Origin: Clavelina lepadiformis
Taxonomy: Eukaryota; Chordata; Ascidiacea; Aplousobranchia; Clavelinidae
DNA: 64,000 bases
NCBI RefSeq assembly: GCF_947623445.1
Contig: NC_135243.1
Coordinates: forward strand, 22,762,479 to 22,826,478
Direction: 5' to 3'
The notes beneath the pieces were generated by a model. The model saw only the letters and a program-made list of their open reading frames with translations. It was not told where the DNA came from and did no database searches. The translations under genes and the position numbers were made by a program. Of the stretch, positions 15,309 through 35,691 are shown piece after piece. The first letter of the stretch is position 1; each line of letters begins with the position of its first letter.

Positions 15309-18300
15309 ATGTGTGGGATCTTTTGCTCAGTGGCATGTACTTCCAAGGTAAATAGGTAAAAAACTTGTTAAATTGCGCTACCTGGCTACGTAGTATGAGC
15401 AGTACTGCATACGTTAGTGCACACGTTAGTTATAATATTATTAGCCTATCTGATATTACAGTCTGTTGTGTTGTTTACCTTAGTTACTGTAAGTTTATAG
15501 ACCTCTCTCAGTTTCAAACGTTATGTATCCTAAGAATTCTGGTTTCAACAGTATTTGTGTTCTAAGCTTTAAGAGTCAAATAATAATCCGAAGATGCGTC
15601 AGTTTAAAGAGTCTTATGCAGAAGTGCACAACCATGTGATGTATCTGTATACTAGACCCCTGCTACCCAGATTGTGACGTCATTTGGTTGTGCACTGGAC
15701 CCAATTTAAGCATAGTTTTTGAATCATTCTCCATTTTTTTGCCAGCTGTCAGCATAGACTATTGTACTTTATCACATACCAAAATAAACATACTTTTTGT
15801 TAGGTTGAAAGAAGTTACGAAACCTTACACAACCTTGAGAACTCTTTGAAACGAAGAGGTCCCGACCAACATGACAAAATTGAAATCGAGTTCGATGGCC
15901 AACATCTGCTTCTAGCATCATGGGTGTTGCATATGAGAGGATCTGAGTTTGTTCCACAACCAGCAAGGAGTTCTTCTGGGAATGTGTTACTTTGGAATGG
16001 AGAGCTGTATGCTGGGTTTAAGGTGGTGGGAAAATTTTTTTTAAACTCACTGAATCGCAGTGTCTATTTCTAGCTGACATTGGACACACATCAATATTTT
16101 TTGGTCAAATGTAAATCAACCAGAAAGTTAATGAAATGCCTAAACTAATCCTCAATCTCTTTTCTAACTTGGCTGTATAACAGTGTAATCTTACCGTTTT
16201 CAATAAAATATCATACCTTTTTCACTTTACCTAAATCACTACATAGTACATAATGTAGTTTATGTTAAACAGTGCTATCTGCAAGTGACATTCATTACTT
16301 ATAAATTAAATATTGGATGTCACTATTTCACCAGATAATGTTCGTATATTCAAAGCTATTTTTCAGAGATTCCTGTTACACTTAAAAGTTGTCATACAAT
16401 AACTTAAACCTGTTTTAAATCTCATTTCTAATTTAAATCTAACTTCAATTTGAACCAAAATAATTAAAATCAACTTTGTACAGTGTACATACCCTTTCTT
16501 TTAACTTAACTGCCTACATATCTTTGGCTACTGGTACTGGCTATACGACCAACTTTCAGTTGGTAAACTTCTTAAGTAATTGTTTACAAGTTTGCAGTTC
16601 TTTCTGGTTATCAGTATTTTCGGTGTTGTATGATAATACCAACCTAACATTTGCAGGTGCCAAAGGGTGTAAGTGACACAGAAGTTGTAGTTCAACAACT
16701 GGAGATACAATCGAATGAAACCTCAGTGGAAAGCATCATGTCATTAATGAGAGGTCCTTGGGCCTTTGTATATTTTCAGAAGACGACGAAGAAGCTGTGG
16801 TTTGGAAGAGATTACTTTGGAAGGAGAAGTTTATTGCTTTCTTATTCACAAAAAAACTTGATTATTTCATCCGTTGCAAACAGAACATTCTCGGAATGGA
16901 TCGAAATACCGCCTGGAGTCTTCTGTATCGACTTGAATGTTATCGAAGATGATATTTTTAGTGCATTAACTGCATTTCCTTGGATTTCTGTTACTGACAA
17001 AAAACCAAAAATTTCGTGGGATAGTAAAATAAATTTATTTGCAAATATTTCCTCCAGTATCAATCCACCTATTCCCGTCTGTTCTGAGCAAAAGCACCGT
17101 TTTCGTGGAAACGATGCTTCAACTGATCGAAGATCTTCTGACGTTGAAGCGAAACCAATTGAAATTCTTGTTGAAAATTGTGAAAAGAAACAGCTATGGC
17201 CATATTGTCAAGCACTTATAAACAAACTCCGTAATGCTGTGGAACATCGGACTCAAACGCTGGAAAGCTGGGGAAACAATTGCAAAGTTGGGATTCTTTT
17301 TTCAGGAGGCATCGACTGCACTGTACTGGCATTGTTAGCTCATTCGGTGATACAAATTAGCGAACCAATCGAATTGTTAAATGTTGCTTTTGAGTCTCCC
17401 AAAAAAAAACCGCAAGGAAAGAAAAGCATGCAAAACAATGCCACCAAGGAAGTAGACTACAACGTCCCGGATAGGATTACAGGGAGAAATTCTTATGAAG
17501 AGTTACGCAATCTCTGTCCAAACCGAACTTGGAAATTTGTAGAAATAAATGTAACTATAAAAGAATTGCAACACCAACGGTCACAGCACATTGGTGACCT
17601 GACTTATCCAAAAGCAACAGTGCTGGACGACAGCATAGCGTGTGCACTATGGTTCGCTTGCCGAGGAGAGACGTCTGGTTCGCCTTTAGGTGGAGCAAAG
17701 GATCAATACATCGCTTCATCTCGTATACTTCTATGTGGCATGGGAGCAGACGAACAATTGGGTGGATACTCGAGACATCGAGGGATCTTTGAGAAAAAAC
17801 ACGACTGGGCAGAAGTTCAAGCAGAGATGGATATGGAGATTGAAAGAATTGCGGAGCGCAATCTAGGCAGAGATGATAGGTAATGAAAACAGGTAGCAGC
17901 ATGTAATTATTCCTACAACGGCATAATCCCACTACACAGGACATAGCATAAAAACTAAAATTTATTATTTAGGCCTATTCTAATTATTTTAGATAATTTT
18001 GAAAATTTGTGTTAGCTTAGGAATTAGTTTTGAATAAAATTCAAGTAATTTACTGAATTGTGTGGTTGGGATTTTTATCGCGTGATTTGAATTATTTTGA
18101 CGTTGCTGTTTTAGTAGATTCCCATGGAAACTTGAACTCATATTTTGCCCGACAATTATAGTCTTATTGATCAAAGCGTAGCATTTTTACTGTGATGGTA
18201 ATGACTTAGATGACAGATGTTTTGTTTCAGAATTCTGGCAGACCATGCAAGGGAAGGGTTATTTCCATATTTAGACGAAGAAGTGGTTGGGTTTTTATCA

Positions 18301-18622: not shown

Positions 18623-21599
18623 TTAGTGGTACTTCCTCAGCATGTGAGACTCTGAAAAGAAAATGAACTGGTTACTTATCATGCAAGTCATAGTATATTA
18701 ACTTATGGTATGAGTGCCTTGCTGTCAATTCTGTGATCTGTGGTTAAAGCCAAGCAGGGCTACAATATGTTAGCAATGTCCTATTGTTATTGAGACCTAA
18801 GCCTGTTTAAAGGAAGATTACCTGTAACCTTCAAGCACAAAATGCAATGCCAAACATGTTACAAGTTTCTTAGTTCAAGAAGAAAAAGCATAAGTACGGG
18901 TACATACAACGTGTTAAGTGTGTTCTATAGATCACTTACTCATGTCACGATAGTCAGTGATGTACATTAACACAGCTGCCGAGCCTGCCAGCATAGCCAC
19001 CAAATTTCCTCCGGGGCGTCGAACGTGGTAATATTTGCTCCATAGTTGATGACGGACTTGAAGGGTTAATATAGAAAATGCATAAAATTAGTTCCCTATG
19101 TGTTGTCCATATTAGTATGGATATTTGGATCAAAATATGAAAAACGAATAAAATAATGTTAGTTCTCATGCATTTTATCTACTGATTTAAATAAAGCACA
19201 TCAACCTCATAAGTGTTGAATAAAATTTTATTCTAGTTTTACAATTATACTCACATCGTTTGAAGGAAAACCATAAACCAAGTGGACTAAAGTTCCTCTG
19301 AGAAAACCATCCTGGAACTTCGTAAAGTTTCACATCTCTGAGTAGCCTGGTGTCGGCTGGCAATTTCATGCCTGGTTCCACTGTTGAGTTAAATAACATT
19401 AGTTTATTTTATTAAAATAAATCCATGCGATGTTGAGCACAAAGTTGGCACTTATTGTGAATATATCTATTTCATGTATTTCACTCCATGAAAATTCATG
19501 TATTGTGAAAGTTGACTTAAGTTGAAAAACCAACAAACAATAGCGCCAAGATTGACTTTGGTCACATAAGCTGTCATTATCATTGCATTGTTATTATCAT
19601 TATCTGTCCTGTAATACAGTGTACGGGATTGACTATGCCATTGAGGTGATACCCAAGTCTCAAAGCTAGTTGTATGTTAAAGAAGGACAATTAAATTACC
19701 TTATAACAAAGGATAGATATATGCAAATGGCTAGATTTAGTTATCCGGGGCAAGATAATAGCTTTGGTTAAGGTTAACAAGTGATTAAAAAAACTTATCA
19801 ATCAATTATCTTTATCTTTTTTTAACAACTTTGTACAAAATAGGAAGGTACCGTCAACCGGGGTTACTATGATAGGATTCAGGACATTTCTTTGCCTCCT
19901 CTCTCACATGTTGCTCAAAAAGGGTCTGTTTCTTAAATGAGTAACACTTTGGTCCTAAGCTTCTCAAAAAAATAGAAAAAATTCATTTTTATATTTTCAC
20001 ATTTTTTTTATTCAACTTTAAAAAATTATCGTAGTAGCCCCTGGGTTGGGGCTACTCTGATAATACATTGTAAATATACCTAAAATGTTCATTGTAGCCC
20101 TCCCTTGGGGCTTTTCTAATAGTTTTTTGCATTAAACAAAACATCACAGCAATATAAAACATAAGTGTCAAAAAAACATTGTTAAGCACAGCTCGGAGGG
20201 CACTCAATCCACCATTGTCTCTGAGGCAGATTTTGTGATACCACAAATCACAATTGTCACATCCCTCCCAATCCACATCTCTGCTTCTACCTCGTGGAGG
20301 GTCCAAGAGGTTGCAGATGACGCAAACTTCCCCTTCATCTTCACTGGAATCATTGGGTTCAGCAGCTTGCGTTTTCTTGCATCAGATCGAGATGAATTTA
20401 AATCAGCAATATCACATGATGAAATTGCTGCTCCTGGAGTTATCTTGGGACCACGTTTTCTTGATGATGTTTGTCTTGGTGAAATATATTCCTCAAGCAT
20501 TGTGGCGACTGCATTACCAAGCACTTCTTGAACTGGCTGAGAATTGGCAGGTGGCAGTCGCTTCAGCACTTGCTCTCGGTCTTTTGGGAAAATTCCACAG
20601 GCTTTAAACCCTGCGACCAAATTTTGCTGCTTTTCGTTCAACCCATCACAGAGTCTTTTGGGCAACATAGGAAAAATATTCTTTGGAATGGAGTTTTTGG
20701 AACGACTCCCTTTCCTCCATTCTGCTAAAATTCGACGCCACATTCATTTACCTGGCCCAAAGACACTGACGTCCAATGGTTGAAGGAGATGCGTCGCATT
20801 CGGAAGCAGGTTAACAAACTTAATGTCATTTTCCTCACAAGCCTTCAAGACTGTTTCACTAAAATGAGAGGCCAAGTTGTCACCCAGCATAATCTTGGTA
20901 CCTGGAGTGTCCTTGACAGCTTCCAGAAACAAACCAAAAAAAAATTTTTCAAATAAAGAAGCGTCAAACCAACCACTCACGGAATGGTCGTATAAAGCAT
21001 TTTGGGGTCCATTTCGAGTGCACTCTACATAAAGATTCTTCGACTTATAAACAGTCATTGGTAGTAAAAACTGCCCTGCACCATTTCCGCAAAACATTAC
21101 GCTTATAGCCTGTTTGGACGAGGCTATTTTCCTTTCTACACGTCTCAGTCCGCCATAGTTGTATTATCATAGTTATTACCATAGTAGCCCCCAAAATCAA
21201 AGTAGCCCCGGTTGACGGTATCAATCATCTTATGTATTGGTCATGTGCAATATTGTGCTTAATAACAAAAGTCATGCGTCTTGTAAAATATTAGCTTTTC
21301 TAAAGGTAAATTACTTCAAATTATAATGTACTACGAAAATTAAGTTTATACATAAGTAAAGGTTTTTAAGCAAATACATAAATGATTGTGACCTATATGA
21401 ACCCAGCCCTACACACAAAAAATGACGTTACTGAATAATAACATCTACTTAATCAGATACTACAAAAATGTCAAGGTCAGCTCTGTGATTGTATAATTAA
21501 ACAACAGGTATCAATAAAAGGCATTTCAAACGACTTACATTTTGAAGCATAATACTTTGGGTGTTGAGCAAGATTTGCCAAGTCAGCTTTGCCTGCCAT
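18623..21599 (-). CDS. ATP5MF: ATP synthase F0 subunit f, mitochondrial
   Basis: Small membrane subunit of mitochondrial ATP synthase, 110 aa in four exons: 21539-21599, about 19253-19380, about 18939-19055, and 18623 to about 18651. Translation runs MAGKADLANLAQHP, then VKLYEVPGWFSQRNFSPLGL, WSKYYHVRRPGG, a hydrophobic span NLVAMLAGSAAVLMYI, and ends MLRKYH. Human subunit f has LGELPSWILMRDFSPSG and the same basic C-terminal LRKYH. Splice phases agree at each junction. The first intron carries a Tigger-like transposon (19851-21218). ASNSD1 converges on it with 115 bp between the stop codons; LYRM4 is divergent, 2.0 kb upstream. Confidence 0.92.
19851..21218 (-). mobile_element. Tigger/pogo-like DNA transposon, broken, in ATP5MF intron
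   Basis: A 1368-bp element flanked by TA on both sides. Its inverted ends read CCGTCAACCGGGGTTACTAT on the left and, reversed, CCGTCAACCGGGGCTACTTT on the right. Minus-strand coding from about 21097 to 20204 is a DDE_1-type transposase remnant: GDNLASHFS holds the second catalytic Asp, and LLPNATHLLQPLDVSVFGP holds the third. One in-frame TGA lies at 20744-20746. A second frame carries a zinc-knuckle with C-x2-C, then C-x2-C-x4-H-x2-C (20215-20330), like the first half of a PHD finger, so a frameshift separates it from the upstream frame. The N-terminal DNA-binding domain and first catalytic Asp are absent. It is non-autonomous. Confidence 0.85.
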
Positions 21600-25408: not shown

Positions 25409-28400
25409 CTACCGCCTGAAAATGACATTCCGGCGATCTTTCAAGCTTCGGTAAACACTGAAGTTAAAGTTGGAATTCAAACTCTGCACAACAAAACAAA
25501 AAAGTTAGGTCTTCACATTTAATTTAATACGATACGAATCATTTCGACTATATATAATCAGTAAGCTTTAGATTGCCTGATAGTTTGTGGTAAACCCTTC
25601 TACTGTTCGTAATGTTAAAAAAAGATAAGCCTACTGTGTGTGGGGCTGGTAGCCCAACGAATAGCGGGTTGCTAGATAAGTGTAGGTAAAAGAATATCGA
25701 TGTGGTTTAAAAACTGGGAATTTCCCCACCTCGACCAAACGAGTCGCCAGTTTATTCATGACGTTACTTGACCGACAATGCACGAAACAGGTGAGTCCTA
25801 GCACGCCAGGAACCACTAGGAACAGGCTTCCATAATCGTTCCAGGTGACGGCGATGTCCTGATGCTACGAAAGTGCAGGTTTAATAGTTATTCAACCTTG
25901 GGTCAAGTTTGATTGATCAATAACCAGTTAACTGATTTGGGCCATTAGACGAACTGTTAGCACTAAGCAAGTAATGGTGATTGGGTTACCTGTTTGCTTG
26001 GTGGCTTGCTGTTGTCTCTACTTGACCTTATGACGTTTAAACAATGAGTGACAGTGGTTTCTTTAAAAATTGTCTCGTCTGTAAAGAAATTAAAACAACC
26101 TATTATCAACGTGTGCGTGTGTTATCCTTAAGTTAAAACGTTGATAATACGGCAGATTGTTCTTTCACAGAACATATCACTGGGCGTCTTAAGCTTTTAA
26201 AGTTTTTTAAGCCATTTTATCCAGTTAAATAGCACCTTCCTACCTTAATTGTATAAAATGTCTCAAATGCTATTGGTCAACATATAACCTACGTAACGTT
26301 CGATATGTTAAAACATTTCTCACCAGTAATGGCGCATACGCCGCCATTAGCCAACGTCGCTGCTGCTACTGCGCATGCATCTGACGTCATCGCTGACGAA
26401 ACTGACTGGAAATGAAGATCAATGGTGTCGCTGATGTCTGAAGCCGCGCCGCATGGCATCCGCTGGGTGGCGCTGAGGAAGTAGGCAAGACCGATTTCCT
26501 CATGAGCGTAAGATCGTTTGTAGTTGTAGCTGAAATAAGACTACATTTATTCGACGCTAAACAAACGGGATATACCATGCTCAAAAAGACATATCTGCAC
26601 TGTATATCGACACTGTAATTTTGGTGTATAGTTTCTAGATGATACCTGCACTTTGTCACAAATCAAATCACGTTAAAACACCAAGAAAGTCATTTTAGCG
26701 TCAAAGGTTACCTGAGGTTATCGCAGCACACGGGTTCATGTCCGGTCATGGAAGCATAGAACTCTTGCAAGGGTTCCAATCTGCTCTGTACCGCCACGTC
26801 GCGGAAGAGAAAAGTTGTTGTGAGAATGGAACCAAGCTTCGTGAAGGGATTCCAAACTTTTTCATCCGGCCTCAAGGAGAACTCACTCTGAAACAATGTC
26901 ACAAATCTGTATTTTACGCCTCATTAACCGCACGCATTTAAGTAATAAAATAGTAATAAATTTAAGTAGTAATATCGCCGATCGCGAAACGCCTTCGCTT
27001 TGTTGTGAGATTGCATTACACATAAATGTACAGCCTCACCACATCAGACGGTTTTGGCTTCCTTCCAAGAGACGACGTCATAGCTTCGATACCGTTTTGG
27101 CGGCACGCCAGGCAATAGTTAAATACTTGCGCGCAGGCATTGAGGGGATGGGGCGTCTCTATGGGAAAAATCATATCAGCAAGAAACATACGTATCGTCA
27201 ATGCATTAACAATCCGTATTGGAAGATGTTACAAAAAACAACAATTAAAAACTGTCTCAGTTCGTATTAGCGAGATTTGTATTAGCCGGACTAATCTCCA
27301 GTGACCTCATAAACAAGTTTTTTTCCAAACTAGCGCAACTAACTTATCCTCAGAATGTCACAACAGCAAAACAGCGATCATGTAATTACAAGTACCCAGG
27401 GGACGTTATAGAACTGATTACACAACACCAGGACAAACCTGTATCGCCATACGAGCATCTTTGCCCATCCACGGTGCACACAGACATCGAGGTGCGGGCC
27501 TTTCGTCTTCCCAAATTTCTCATTACGACGCTATAATCAGAGCTCGGATCAATATCTTGAACGACGTCATCCTGAAGAATATTACACGGCATAAGAGCCA
27601 GGTATAACTCTAACACTGGGTCACTCTCCCTTAAGTTTGTCCCGGCGGCGTTAGCGTTGATTCACGATTCGCTGGTGCAACCTTACACAGCACCTAAGTG
27701 CGCTGTAGACCGTTCAATCAAATACGATCACTTATTTTGCATGTTGAGCCACAAGGGGGCGCACAATCCAACCCGGTTTAAAATTTGCAAACTAGATGAC
27801 GTTGGATTAGAACTCGGAGACAGATTTAACTCGCCGGCAAGTTACACCTAGAAGATGTGGAAAACTTTACCTGGGTCTCCAGGAGTTCTTGGATGCTTTC
27901 GAAGATGTCAGCCATCCGCATCTTGAAGACGTTGAATCCCGGGATCGTGAGTTGGCTGAGTAATACTCCTCGGACGAACTTAAAACTCGGCTCACACACC
28001 CTGCTCATAATGCAAATAAGCTGTGGTTTAGACGCTTAAGACGCTGGGAAACGTTTGAGCAACTTTTCTGGACAACTTTTGTGTCTTTGTACAAATTCCT
28101 GATTACAAGCTGTGTAATAACTAGTTGTAAGTACTGTAACAAATTACAAACTGATTAAAATTCTTTGTCACTTAACTAGAACCACAAATCGCTAGTTAAC
28201 ACCTAATCGACCATAAATAATTAAAATAATCGATTAACCTGGAGAAGACTTCGAAGTTTAGCGGTGATTCCGGTCCACCCGCTTGTTCCTCGATTCTTCT
28301 GAACATCTTCTTCAATCTGGGATCGGACAACTTGATCCCTTTGCTCTCGATCAAGTCCAGAACATCCCGTATCTTCGCTCCTGGTCTACTCGTTGCATCC

Positions 28401-31400
28401 ACGGTGGACATGGCTATCCGGAATAACGGCTTCATGCCCGATCGCAAATTGGAAATTTTGTCCGCAGAGCTATTTGTTCGGATATCGGCGCATTTCTTAT
28501 CGCCGTCAGATTTATCCCGATCAAGTTGTTCCGAGTTAGATGTGTCTGTTTTTCTAAACAAATTACGATCTAATGACGTCGTCTTGTTTACACCGCTGAT
28601 AGTGTCATAGAAACAATCACTTTCGTCATCACTCGACATGCTTGAGTGATCATTGCTCGAAGAAGCGCGATCGCTGTCGTTTTCATTTTGAAGTTTGGTG
28701 GATTCGGCCCCGTTTGCGTCAGGTATTTCACCGTTTTCAATGACGTTTGTCTCTTCCTCCTGCATGTTTATATCCGTTTCCGCCCCTGCAGTATCTTCAT
28801 ATTCCGCAATGCCGTTTTCATGGAGCTCGGCTGTTTTAGAAGCGTTATTGTCTCCTTCCGCATTTTCTCTGCTAAATCCACCATTTTCATTCTCCGCTAT
28901 ACCATTGTTATCAAAATTACGATTCGCGGTTTCCAAGACTTGGTCTTCCGCATCCGTTATTCCTTCTTCCGGTTCTTCCACTTCCTCGATCCGGTCGAGA
29001 GTTGTTCCCACGACTGATTGCACTATTCCGTCGATGTTCTCCTCAAACCCGCAGTTTCCCCGTTCCAAATCATAACCCTCGTAACAATCATCACTGTCCA
29101 CGTCATAGTAACGTCCATAGTCGTCATCGAAGGAACTCCCCCGGTCGCTCGATGACGTCAGCTGATCCGCGAAAGATCCGTTATCCATTCCAACGTCCTG
29201 GTCGTCGATAGGAAGCCTGGACAGATCCAGAAAGGTGTCGTATTGAGTGCTTGGCTTTTGAGGTTTTCGAGTTCGATTCCGTACCAGGTGAACGTCGTAA
29301 TCTGCACAAGGAAGAAAACAAAAAAAGTTCGGAATCTATTGTCATGAAAAATCCAGTTCTCATTTTGATCTTTTCCTCCTTTTGAATAATCATTTCATCA
29401 TAAAAGCCAGACGTTATCACTCACGTAAATAATTCATCATCTTACGTCATAACTCATAATAATTTAGTAGATGAATACAGTTGCCTTAACCCGGTTCCTA
29501 TCGACGTATGATTTATTCCCTCACAAGGCAGTGACTTTTTGATTACGTCATTGCAGTGTGACATAACCGCTAACTCAAGGCGTAACAAGCGCTCCGCTAA
29601 AGCAACACGAATTTGTTTTAATTGGTTTAGGTTACATGTTGCTGAAAGACAGACTTTAACCGCTTGGCTTGTGGTATTGGACAGGAGTCCAAAAGCTTCC
29701 ACAATTTCTTTACAGCACTCCTCGAGTGCGCAGCGAACCGTAACGACGTATTTAATCAAGCGGAAATGACTTAAAAGCTTTAACAATAACCAAAAGCTGT
29801 CACTGGCGGTAAGAAAAAGCGAAAATGGCATAAAAACATAAAAAAATAACGGGAGTGAAATCTTGCCCAAAATTAAAGACAAATTATCTGGAGTCTGACT
29901 GGAAGCCAAACGCGATTTTTCTTAGTCAAAGCTCAAAGCCAAAAGGAAGTAGTTTAGAAATAAGATTGATTTGGCTTCACGCTGTTCCACCATCATCGGG
30001 AGAGCATTACGTCATAGAATGTGGAAATACTTGACAACAAGCTATGTGGTGTGCTATTAAGTACGGCTGCTTGATACGAGAGAAAGAAATGCTGAAACAA
30101 ATGTCTGATCTGTGGCAAACTTGGCGCCATTAAATATTCACGTGGTTTCAACGAACGAATGGTTATATGAATTAAAGCATTCAATGAATTATGGTTATAT
30201 GAATTACAGCATTCAAATTCGGACTTTTTCATACCATTACATTTATAACAAAACAAACTCGAACAGCAATGCCAGTAACTTACTAGTATCACAAAACGGG
30301 TGAAATGAGACGAAAAGTTGGAATGAAACGAAAACTTGAAAGTACAGCAAATATTTTTGTTTATAAAACGAGGTCATTTGAGAAAAAAAACTTCAAAGTC
30401 TTTATGCATACAACTATAGATAGTGAACCGTATCTTATACACCAATAAGACAATGTACACTGATAAATTCCACCAAACGTTTAATAGATATATAATTACT
30501 TAGAACTTTGGTGTCAAAACTTTAATTAAACATCGTCATTTCTTAAAATGCTTATCGTAGTTAATTAGTTTATTACCATATTAGTAATGGACGAATAGCT
30601 TTTTTTAAATTTGATGTTTATAGACAACTGAATCATTCCCGAAACCGAAAACCTACCTAAACTTTAGCCTACATAAATTGCTTCTTTGTAAATATCCAGA
30701 CGCCGAACTAACAGGATTAAGCAATAGGTGCCTTTATGCATAAAACATGAGCCAAAACACATTAATTTTATCTCTTCAGTGCAGATTGCATCACTTCAAT
30801 TAAGTTTTATTAACATCGGAACTTAGTCCATTTGAGTTATCCTATGTGACGTTAACGGAGGAGAAGCGCGATGTATACTTGCATGATTGAATGGGGGGAA
30901 ATAGCTTTCTAAGTAAACCGCATATACCAACCTTGTACACAACCGGGAGCGAAAAAATACTTCTGAATTATTCAGTATTGACTGTGTTGCATAAGACCTA
31001 AAGCCAAAAACGTACAGAATTTTGCCATAGTTCGTGTTGTTACGACAAGAAATTGGATTCTTTGTAGTTGCATTACCGCGACAATCAGTGCCTTCAGGGT
31101 TATGTGATGTCATGTATTAAAATCGTTTTTCGTCGCTATTTTTGCGGTTTTCAACAGCGGCGTATATAACACAATCGCAAATAACTCTCAGCTGAGTCAT
31201 CCGTAGTCGAGATGCCGTGTCGTAAGAATATTGCTTTGGCAAATGCACTTCCTAAGAGCAAAAAGGGTCCAAGACCTATTATATCTATATGCAACTATAC
31301 GCTTGTGGGTGCTGCAATAAAATTGTGTGCGACAAAGAAACGAGCGCCTTCATTCAACAACTACGAATATGCAATCTGGTTATCCAAGGTATTCCTAAAT

Positions 31401-34400
31401 AACGTTTACGTTGAAGTCGTTTCACAAACATCGCAGAAAGCGTGCAAGCCAGGTCCAGGGGGGGTTAAAGTATAAAAAGCTAAAGGTCTTATATTTTTTA
31501 AATTGCAGATAAGTTGCCAAAAGTACTATTGCAGTAACAATAAATGGTACACAAATCAATCAGTTGACCACCCTTTCCAAAATGTGTATTTTTTCGTAAT
31601 TAATGTCTTTTTAAGCATTCAGTTTCCATATCAACCATGTAAGGGTATATATACAATGGATGGATTCACAAAACACATGCAGTGATATTATAAGTAATGC
31701 TTTACCTTCGTCTAAACTTTGAGGTTTTTGAAAGTCGTCTTCATGTCTCGTAATCTGAAGATCCCCGTTCGAATTTCTTCGCTGTATTTCCGGTTCAATT
31801 GTGACGTCAAAACCATTCCAGCTTTTTCTTGCTTCGGTGGCCATGACACCAAACACTTGACCTTTGTCGCTCGATGTTGGAGTCAAAAAACAGTTGAGGG
31901 AGTTATTTATACCTCGGGTAAGAATATCGCCTGCATTGAACGCTGTAATTCGACTTGCTGCGTCTTTTGCAAAACTGTAACTGTTTATATCTTTGCTTAT
32001 GTCTTGTTCTCTTCTTGTGACATCATAATGCAGCTCGTCATCGAACGCCGGCGAACAGCTGTTCTTTTTCTTCACTTCGTCAAACCAGCGATGCATGTCG
32101 TCTTTTTTCTTTTCCTCGGCTCTCTCGTTTTTGCTTCTCTCCCATCCAAAACTGGGCAGCTTTTCGGCTAACCGCGTGCGGATTATCTTCGGTCGCGCAA
32201 GGAACAGTTCGGAATCGTCCTGACTGTGACTGCTCAATTTAATACAGTTCGCCGTGCGTGGTGGCTTAGAAACATTCGAAATCCAACTCTGAAAATTGCA
32301 AATTGTGCTTAAATAAACTGCAATGAAACGTCTACTACAAAAATATCAAGTACATTTTGGAATTTTGGCCGTAATATTCATCCTTGGAATTACAAGCCGC
32401 AGCAAACATTACGGTTACAGAATTCATAAACATGCCAATCGTCTGTTATTGTTTATCTTGGGAGTTGAAACTTGAAAGCACTAACTGTCAAAAACACGCT
32501 AACCTAAAATTAAACAATGAGCTTTGTAAAAGAGCGCAACAAAACAACAATGAGTATCTCTCCATGACAGTAGGTACCTTGTAATTTGCGCGGTCGCGCT
32601 ATATCGGAAACTTTTAAATTACACGAGCAACAACATTTGCATCGATTAAATTTCGAACGTTTAACGCAAAATCTTTGTCAAACTTTATACTTTTCGAAAC
32701 CTCTTAATGAGTTTGGGGCCAAAGTCAATTGCCTAGGACAAAGATAGGCCCAGTATAGTTACGCCATATAAAGCCAACGTCCTTTTTATAAAACTACACA
32801 ACTTCGTGTGAATTGCTGTCCAGTTTGCTGAGCATTCTTTAAACAAGCTTTGAGTGTTAAAGTTTCTCTGACGACACATTCTCACAAGGCTACTTGATCA
32901 AAACAGGCTACGAGACAATCGCAGTTCTGGACTAACCAAAACGAATTCAGTGGTGTCGATTACTGAATACTGATTGACAAATAATAAACTCAGAGATGCG
33001 TAGCTAAGAAAATTCTCGAAAACAAGCTTCTCATTGGTCGGAAAGCTTAATTCAGCGGTCGATTGATCGATTGTTATGTGAACAATGGGTTAGTGTGACA
33101 TCATAACAAGAATATCGATTTTGTTACCTAACTAAGAAGAAATATTTCAGATATCATGACTACAAAATGTTAATAATAATCTCAACAAAGGGTATACAGG
33201 GATTAACGGATTTTTGTTCGCTGGGTAAGGGCGTTTATTGTTTTGTAATAAACCTCTTTATTACCTATTGGTATCATTTGATGAAAATAGGCTCACTTCA
33301 CCTAACGCACCTTACTTAATGTCCGTTTCATGAATCAACTTTCAAACTACAGTAATAAATCAAAACCAACGATGTTTAACCGCTTATAAAATGTGTCTTA
33401 GGCATTTCGTGCAGGATTTTGGTCCCATTTCTATTACCAATCCTATTGTGGAATTGATTACAACATATATTGCAGTTATAAACAAAAACGTATTTTAGTT
33501 GTTGCATTTATACGTTGTGAAAACATTATTTGCTAGCCCTATTGGAAGATTCTTCAGTGAAAATTCGAAGACCGTTACATTTTTCTTAACGTGCTAAGCT
33601 AAAATTTCTGTAGAAAACGACAACAGTTGAAGTGCCAATAAATGAAATAAAAGCACCAAAAATCGCTAACAGATCACGCAAAATAACACCGTATGCTGTG
33701 ATGAGAAATTAAGGCGATGGACATTAGTAGAACACTCTGCGTTTGCTGTGTGGATTGAAAAAAGTCTATTTTACTTACTACAGTAAATAAGAGGAAAGTT
33801 TTAAACAACTGAAAGTATTATTATAATGATACCTCTATCTCTGTAACACTGATGGAGGAGGCTCCGGTGATTGTGTGGCGACGTTCGCTTCTTTTCTTCC
33901 GTTTTTCCTTCAAAACTTCACAAAATTGTATTTGTTAAAACAGTGTTGGGAAACCCTGGACTTGGAGGACTTTAAATTGTTCAAATTTTGTTCTATTCAT
34001 TTGCACGTGAGAACAAGTTTTCTCTGTGAAGTTTGTTAAAGTTTTGAAGCCGTAATTACCTCTATTTTTGGATTCCTCTTTTCCGTTTTCAATCAGGTCC
34101 TTGTCGACAAAGAGATACTTTTCAAACATGCCGTTAACTTCTTTCGATTTTTCATTTTCCTCCTCATCTCTTCCGATCTCTGCCTTCTCACTCTCTCCGT
34201 TTAGTTTAAATAAAGAAACAGGAAGAGAAAGAGCAGACGAGGAGAAAGAGGGAGGAGGAGGTGTAGGTGGAGAGAAGAATTCTGAAACGTCGTTGGCTGG
34301 TTTTCTTCTTCCGTTTCTTACTCTTTTATGACCTAACAAAGGAATATAAAAATAAATTGTATCACACTGTAAAACACTTTCAATAAGTTATGCTTTAATA

Positions 34401-35691
34401 ACAAAGTGAGTTGCCAATATCAAGTTAAGTTTTAAAAAAAATCACAGTCATAATCATCTTTAAATACACACCTCTCTCCTGGGCTCCTGGTGATGATTCT
34501 CCATCTCTGCATCCATTGATCTCCTGATAGCATGCATCTGCAGGAAAAACGACAAAATTTGCAGGATGACGATTTTAACGAAATCACTCTCATTGTTGCG
34601 TTACAATGAGGTGTTATGACGAAAGTTTACAGATTTGGCCGAACAATGCAAAAACAAAAGTGTGGGCGAATGTTCAGTCTTTAACTAAGTCTTGTGGCAA
34701 AAATCAAACCTGTTGACGTTTTAACGAAGACAAAACTACTCTTGATTTACAGTTTTACATACAGATTACAAAAGTAGTACCAAGATTTTCAAAGAGAATC
34801 CCATTTTTTTAAGTTGGAAACACTTCTCTGGTAGAGTCAGTTAACGTCATGTGCTAAACGAAGCGTAACATTTCAATGAAACCGCAGGAATTTTGTAATT
34901 GAGATGCTTGAAATCGTACACAACTCAACGCGTGTTCTCCATTGGGCTACAAGAAGGCTTAAGCACTTACGTCATTCTTTAATTCGATAAAAGGCCAAAT
35001 GAATTAATACTATTAACTAGGTGTAATTTGCCTGAATAATTTATGGCTTAGTACGACATTAAAATTTAGAACACAGCTGCCACAGCACGTACATAGGCTT
35101 ACATATCCATCTTATACTGGGCGTATGGTGATTAAAATGAACACGGACAACGTTTTAAGCATTAATTGATTTGAATAAAAAAACAGTGTCGGCGTAAAGC
35201 GAGTTTACAAGAAGTTTTTCTGGTTAAAATAACGCCAAACCTTACACTGTCGACGTTTGGTAAAACACACGAAGTGCTTATGCGGTGGATGCATTTGAAA
35301 GAAAAAAAATTGGTTGCAAAATCGCAAGTTACCGGACTTATGCAAAACAACTTTTCACGTTTAACTCGAAACAGTAACCGGCCAATGGCTACACACAAGC
35401 TTCTTGTTGTTGTTATCTAAGATCTATATTGAAACACGTTACGCGTATGCTGAAACACGTGACAAAGGGTAATTCCCGAAGTGTCTACAAACAGTGCTTG
35501 TTTGAGCGATTTCTTCAACAGATTTTGATTGAGTTACATCACGAGTTAATAATTTGAAAAATTAATTTGCATCGTTTATTCTTACCTTGCGGGGCTTGCA
35601 GTAGACTGGACACCTTAACGTGCTGATACTTTCTACGCCAAGGAGACTTTTTGCAACTGCCACTGCCGTTTGGTGGATCTAGGCTTTTCAT
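25409..35691 (-). CDS. Glutaminase-fold pseudoenzyme with long disordered N-terminus
   Basis: Fourteen exons on the minus strand: 35586-35691, 34472-34537, 34060-34332, 33833-33915, 31706-32288, 28239-29301, 27871-28000, 27439-27571, 27040-27158, 26712-26887, 26324-26529, 25990-26078, 25730-25864, 25409-25483. They sum to 3237 nt, 1078 aa, with every junction in phase. Residues about 60-670 are low complexity: PPTPPPP, a possible basophilic kinase site RRHTITG, and a long Asp/Glu/Asn/Ser-rich stretch from about 410. Residues about 676-768 match the EF-hand-like helical domain of glutaminases (LIESKGIKLSDPRLKKM). Residues 769-1078 follow the glutaminase domain colinearly (SVCTVDGQR, ATLANGGVCAITD, LFLVVPGVLGL). 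Aligned to human GLS, catalytic Ser286 and Lys289 are Ala820 and Gln823; Asn335, Glu381, Asn388, Tyr414 and Tyr466 are also replaced. No ankyrin repeats follow. The start ATG is a guess; the domain call is firm. Confidence 0.82.
29454..29909 (-). other. Open stretch nested in the glutaminase-like gene intron
   Basis: A minus frame of about 150 codons lies within the intron 29302-31705. It has a hydrophobic part (LPLFFYVFMPFSLFLTASDS) followed by a helical, Cys-containing segment (RCALEECCKEIVEAFGLL). The upstream end has no ATG; the first ATG is internal. It could be an alternative exon, a nested small gene or chance. No family recognised. Confidence 0.25.

Follow-up and report, generated by a model that had tools for sequence, protein, structure and literature searches.

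The window analysed here, a 64,000-nt stretch of the Clavelina lepadiformis genome, contains a minus-strand gene (35691-25409) that we think probably encodes an old, functional and non-catalytic relative of the animal mitochondrial glutaminase, a pseudo-glutaminase. The last ~430 residues of its 1076-aa product are a diverged animal-type glutaminase in which active-site, activation-loop and phosphate-site residues are broadly lost. That the protein is non-catalytic and under selection seems to us very probable. Judged by sequence only, it would be a pseudoenzyme in the sense of a homologous fold that is kept and catalytic residues that are lost.

The gene is modelled as 14 minus-strand exons, with a start ATG at 35691 that has an in-frame stop upstream, and with a stop codon that ends at 25409. 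The open frames and 13 in-phase junctions described in an earlier note on this DNA are borne out, as all 13 introns are GT-AG and the frame runs open across every junction, with no internal stop in 1076 codons. Exon 1 (35586-35691), which holds the start codon, has a weak coding score that is nevertheless the top of six frames; the modelled frame of exon 2 (34472-34537) is also the top of six, with a close runner-up; exon 4 (33833-33915) scores weakly, and exons 3 (34060-34332) and 5 (31706-32288) score clearly. The highest coding score belongs to exon 6 (28239-29301), which encodes an acidic low-complexity stretch followed by the start of an EF-hand-like N-domain. The second half of that domain lies in exon 7 (27871-28000), identified by homology to the solved glutaminase structure 3ss3, and exon 8 (27439-27571) was placed by homology and alignment. 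Alignment also supports exons 9 (27040-27158), 10 (26712-26887), 11 (26324-26529) and 13 (25730-25858), while exon 12 (25990-26078) has a coding score of about zero and exon 14 (25409-25483), which encodes a short C-terminus and the stop and shows no ankyrin match, scores negatively in the modelled frame. Trained on 1528 codons, the statistic gives positive and mostly weak scores to exons 1, 2, 4, 7-11 and 13. Exons 8-10 rest on homology, because the statistic favours the reverse frame over the modelled one in each of them (8.0 vs 7.2, 3.3 vs 2.8 and 14.3 vs 4.9, respectively). For exon 14 the modelled frame scores -11.0, against 2.8 in another frame, and the gene model is at its weakest at the C-terminal end.

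Two neighbouring features of the window may be mentioned here. A DDE_1 transposase-like frame at 20747-21163 on the minus strand (51.1 bits), adjoined by open frames at 20052-20743 on the same strand, is read from its sequence as a copy or remnant of a DNA transposon in the vicinity of the gene. On the plus strand, a 411-aa open frame at 16648-17883 with GATase_7 and Asn_synthase matches marks an asparagine-synthetase-like gene; that a glutamine-related gene of this kind lies 7.5 kb from the one studied here is probably a coincidence.

Residues 793-996 of the protein match the Pfam Glutaminase family (PF04960) at 108.7 bits, against a gathering cut-off of 27 (E=4e-31). The closest solved relative is 3ss3, a glutaminase C entry (127.6 bits, E=5.4e-36), and entry 8ima scores 127.1 bits; we take these two to be the mouse and human glutaminases, respectively. 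Like the kidney-type enzymes (KGA/GAC), the protein has an EF-hand-like N-domain followed by a glutaminase domain, colinear over ~370-380 aa; unlike them, it is without the catalytic dyad, the substrate residues, the phosphate-site residues and an ankyrin match, and it carries an N-terminal extension of ~640 aa with an acidic stretch. The EF-hand_14 match is sub-threshold (aa 681-745, 19.4 bits vs a cut-off of 23.7), which says little because the intact glutaminase (GLS) of the same genome scores just 20.4 bits. With TIGR03814, the NCBI glutaminase A equivalog model, the protein reaches 72 bits against a cut-off of 255.4, whereas the genome's GLS passes with 287.8; both fall under the cut-offs of the five other glutaminase models listed. 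The Pfam search had been proposed as a check on a colinear match to GLS read from the sequence, and its outcome, together with the match to 3ss3, confirms that match; the residue numbers from Ala820 to His950 are also reproduced. The eight exons originally assigned to the domain stand, but its limits do not, as the EF-hand-like part starts already in exon 6 (29301-28239).

To compare the catalytic positions, the window domain was aligned by MAFFT with the GLS of the same genome and with 17 bacterial relatives, an eighteenth bacterial locus (L017) being left out. Human residue numbers were placed at positions that we assume to be right; this numbering fits the offset by which residue 544 of the 669-residue chain 8gwr_B pairs with GLS residue 453. 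Six of the eight listed positions, all in gap-free, well-anchored stretches, have lost the residue found in human and in 18 of 18 reference members. In exon 9 the family's Ser-x-x-Lys has become Ala820-x-x-Gln823 (Ser286 and Lys289 in human); in exon 10 Asn335 is replaced by Lys869, and the remaining activation-loop region is poorly conserved; in exon 11, where the AATLANGG block is retained, Glu381, Asn388 and Tyr414 are replaced by Lys915, Glu922 and His950. The Tyr466 position, in the SCGMYD block of exon 12, lies where the alignment has gaps and is unconserved: it pairs with Arg1000 by MAFFT and with Asn1002 in the earlier note, Tyr in neither case, and is Tyr in 18/18 references. The lid-loop residue Tyr249, encoded in exon 8 together with the SVCTVDGQR block, pairs with Ile775 (MAFFT), Val772 (anchored on the neighbouring intron) or Tyr782 (HMMER against 3ss3). 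The claim that every catalytic residue is replaced therefore holds with confidence for seven of the eight and not for Tyr249, which depends on the alignment, Tyr782 being a possible counterpart. All 17 bacterial relatives have the listed active-site residues. Exon 13 retains the LVVPxVxGxxC strand and has lost the PAKSGV block directly before it. In the glutaminase literature, as excerpted, Ser286 and Lys289 form the catalytic dyad (PMC13204110); the proton donor is Lys289, and protons are transferred by Tyr414 and Tyr466 (PMC10770349).

An alternative exon restoring Ser-x-x-Lys was rejected. When the whole window was searched in translation, the queries being the genome's GLS and the 17 bacterial proteins, all matches with E<0.2 among the best 60 fall at modelled exons, some overrunning the exon ends slightly, and the first one off the exons has E=0.20. 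The six frames of the window contain the pattern QSxxK[PTA] five times, with three plus-strand occurrences, a minus-strand one outside the gene and a further minus-strand one inside it. The last of these, at 27013 in the intron that directly follows exon 9, reads MQSHNKAKAFRD and has no glutaminase context.

The damage extends well past the active site. All 18 reference members agree at 61 columns, of which the window protein has retained 23 and lost 38 (three as gaps), the lost ones including 30 family-invariant positions beyond the eight listed; in a leave-one-out comparison, any of the 18 other members departs at no more than 4 of 65 columns. We therefore rejected the idea that a glutaminase normal in other respects has lost its active site alone. 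In the MAFFT-based alignment all eight listed positions are among those lost (p=0.017 given 38/61). Invariant Gly, Pro and hydrophobic columns are kept at 16 of 36 (20 lost), and polar and Tyr columns at 7 of 25 (18 lost; Fisher p=0.28), so the preferential loss of functional over structural residues is only a trend. At the phosphate site, Arg317, Lys320, Arg387, Tyr394 and Lys398 correspond to Asp851, Glu854, Glu921, Phe928 and Thr932, none of five matching human, whereas the genome's GLS matches at 3/5. The helical filament interface is identical to human at 3 of 7 residues (Asn375, Asp412 and Gln416, here Asn909, Asp948 and Gln952), with Tyr912 in place of Phe378, and at 6 of 7 in the genome's GLS. 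The residues of both sites were taken from the excerpted text of PMC10912226 and PMC10770349.

A six-frame PF04960 search of the 209-Mb assembly yielded, from eight candidates, six matches at E <= 0.001, of which exon 11 of the window gene accounts for one and contig C9 for five; mitochondrial COX1 gave no match in the assembly. Contig C9 carries a GLS gene (L007, 11203000-11212500) with 12 exons and a 483-aa product that scores 357 bits with Pfam and 480 bits with the kidney-type glutaminase entry 5w2j, and in which the eight listed residues are all present. At this sensitivity, the assembly shows two loci for glutaminase, of which just one is intact, and the need for glutaminase can be met elsewhere because the GLS on the other contig is intact by sequence. 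The two genes have one intron in common, exact in column and phase; two more agree in phase, with offsets of 3 and 7 columns within gapped regions, and the others differ. In contrast, their proteins score just 94 bits with each other, a value that 8 of the 17 bacterial proteins surpass with the window protein; the latter reaches up to 128.7 bits with bacterial glutaminases such as that of Paraburkholderia (L010). We rejected an origin of the gene as a retrocopy of the genome's GLS or as a recent duplication of it, since introns are present, one of them common exactly, and synonymous sites are saturated; the 94 bits to the genome's GLS, vs 127.6 to 3ss3, also speak against a recent copy. The duplication behind the window gene is, from these comparisons, apparently old.

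The intact GLS and the bacterial relatives have features of their own. The former has no ankyrin match across its 483 aa, and at the phosphate site it has Tyr224 and Ala227 (codons 224 and 227) in place of human Arg317 and Lys320. A change of Lys320 to Ala is reported to make human GAC constitutively active (PMC10912226, in excerpt), and by analogy this GLS may therefore be phosphate-independent. Bacterial glutaminases L008-L015 are 37-43% identical to this animal GLS and have an EF-hand-like region upstream of the domain. Their C-termini presumably resemble ankyrin repeats, as judged by eye from the motif; on this by-eye reading, a KGA-like layout is found in bacteria.

The question of whether such a diverged gene is still maintained was approached through its comparison with GLS, with which it has the same amino acid at 104 of 405 aligned codons. 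Synonymous sites between the two are saturated: the same codon is used at 28 of the 104 identical amino acids (33.8 expected by chance), third-position identity is 0.232 vs 0.238 in shuffled sequences (sd 0.020), four-fold sites agree at 11 of 50, and dS is past the correction range. Identity at first and second codon positions is 0.44 and 0.54 vs 0.26, values raised somewhat because the alignment was made on protein, and the pairwise constraint may partly reflect evolution before the loss of activity. A hydrophobic residue occupies 68 columns in 90% or more of the family members, and the window protein has one at 55 of these (mean 23.9 and maximum 37 in 5000 shuffles). Neutral decay was simulated 1000 times with the present GLS as ancestor, under a simple mutation model with no indels, each run ending when 23 or fewer invariant columns were left. 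At least one stop arose in 1000/1000 runs (mean 12.9, minimum 1), and a cruder estimate gave ~22 expected stops; the window gene has none. The same runs retained a mean of 43.5 hydrophobic columns and a maximum of 58; the observed 55 is high yet within range, and because the neutral maximum exceeds it, neutral decay cannot be rejected on core retention by itself. The stop-free frame together with 13 intact introns favours continued selection, as far as can be read from the gene itself. The earlier view of a pseudoenzyme, not a decayed pseudogene, gains support from the sequence in that the catalytic residues are lost while the frame, the splice sites and the hydrophobic core survive despite saturated synonymous sites.

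A dying gene, whose function is gone and whose frame is still unbroken, would account for the poor codon statistics of exons 12 and 14 and for a hydrophobic core no better kept than in some neutral runs. We consider it very improbable, as the loss of 38 invariant columns implies a long time since function was lost, over which every neutral run gathered stops and this gene gathered none, with all its introns still canonical. The model could also be an artefact of two genes wrongly joined, exons 1-5 and exons 6-14, with the start Met of the second inside exon 6 and perhaps with trans-splicing. Intron 5-6 is 2.4 kb long, exons 1-5 are without a family match, and exon 5 is readable past its donor site (31611-32345, minus strand) for 31 further codons, with a hydrophobic tail and a stop; this read-through is also a possible short isoform. 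The junction between exons 5 and 6 is, however, GT-AG and in phase, and the first Met of exon 6 comes ~38 codons in, which leaves the two-gene model unlikely.

It is rather unlikely, too, that the protein is a dead partner of the active GLS, one that would encounter GLS in mitochondria and, by entering its dimers or filaments, activate, cap or inhibit them. The three interface residues identical to human hint at such a partnership, the more so as Q416A is reported to break GAC filaments (PMC10770349, in excerpt), and there is a precedent in a dead deoxyhypusine synthase (DHS) paralogue that raises DHS activity 3000-fold (excerpts of PMC3663545). The first 40 residues, with seven Lys/Arg and two Asp/Glu, also resemble those of the mitochondrial-type GLS (seven and three), and because these counts are nearly equal, composition argues for no different location. 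On the other hand, the protein starts MKSLDPPNGSGSC, with Asp5 and Pro6-Pro7, which by eye is unlike a presequence, and both the interface and the phosphate site have eroded more than in the genome's GLS; with matches of 3/7 and 0/5, the suggestion of a filament partner or glutaminase regulator made in the earlier note finds no support. The specific proposal that the pseudo-glutaminase copolymerises with or caps active GLS through Asn909, Asp948 and Gln952, and so sets glutamate production, strikes us as decidedly doubtful. Lastly, the charged or ionisable residues at four replaced positions (Lys869, Lys915, Glu922 and His950) could form a new pocket in a glutaminase fold re-tooled for another small-molecule ligand or reaction, a reading that we hold to be highly improbable.

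Returning to the functional, non-catalytic pseudo-glutaminase that we favour, we can present a rough proposal for what it does. The glutaminase domain would still fold and mediate interactions, probably forming oligomers as its relatives do, and this inactive module would present or anchor the ~640-residue N-terminal tail as a scaffold or adaptor. A scaffold role of this kind is possible, if somewhat short of an even chance. Residues 370-640 have a net charge of -48, an acidity that suggests disorder. No Pfam families beyond Glutaminase and EF-hand_14 were found in the full protein at E up to 1, nor was any PDB match better than E=0.27 found for residues 1-412. We would guess that the protein is located outside mitochondria.

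No glutaminase pseudoenzyme was found among the matches listed in a literature search of titles and abstract openings, with few subscription journals covered, and the word pseudoenzyme is absent from the excerpted text of PMC13142944, which reviews the filaments of glutamine enzymes. Inactive paralogues that control an active partner are nevertheless a known kind, as the excerpts of PMC3663545 indicate. The trypanosomatid DHS paralogue described there resembles the present case in that an inactive copy is retained beside an active one; it differs in that activation of the partner by the dead copy was demonstrated there. GLS is a cancer drug target, and its activity has been tied to the formation of oligomers and filaments (PMC10912226, PMC10770349, both in excerpt). 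A natural dead glutaminase would reveal what the fold does without chemistry and, if it is true that the window protein binds GLS, it would be a natural regulator of that enzyme.
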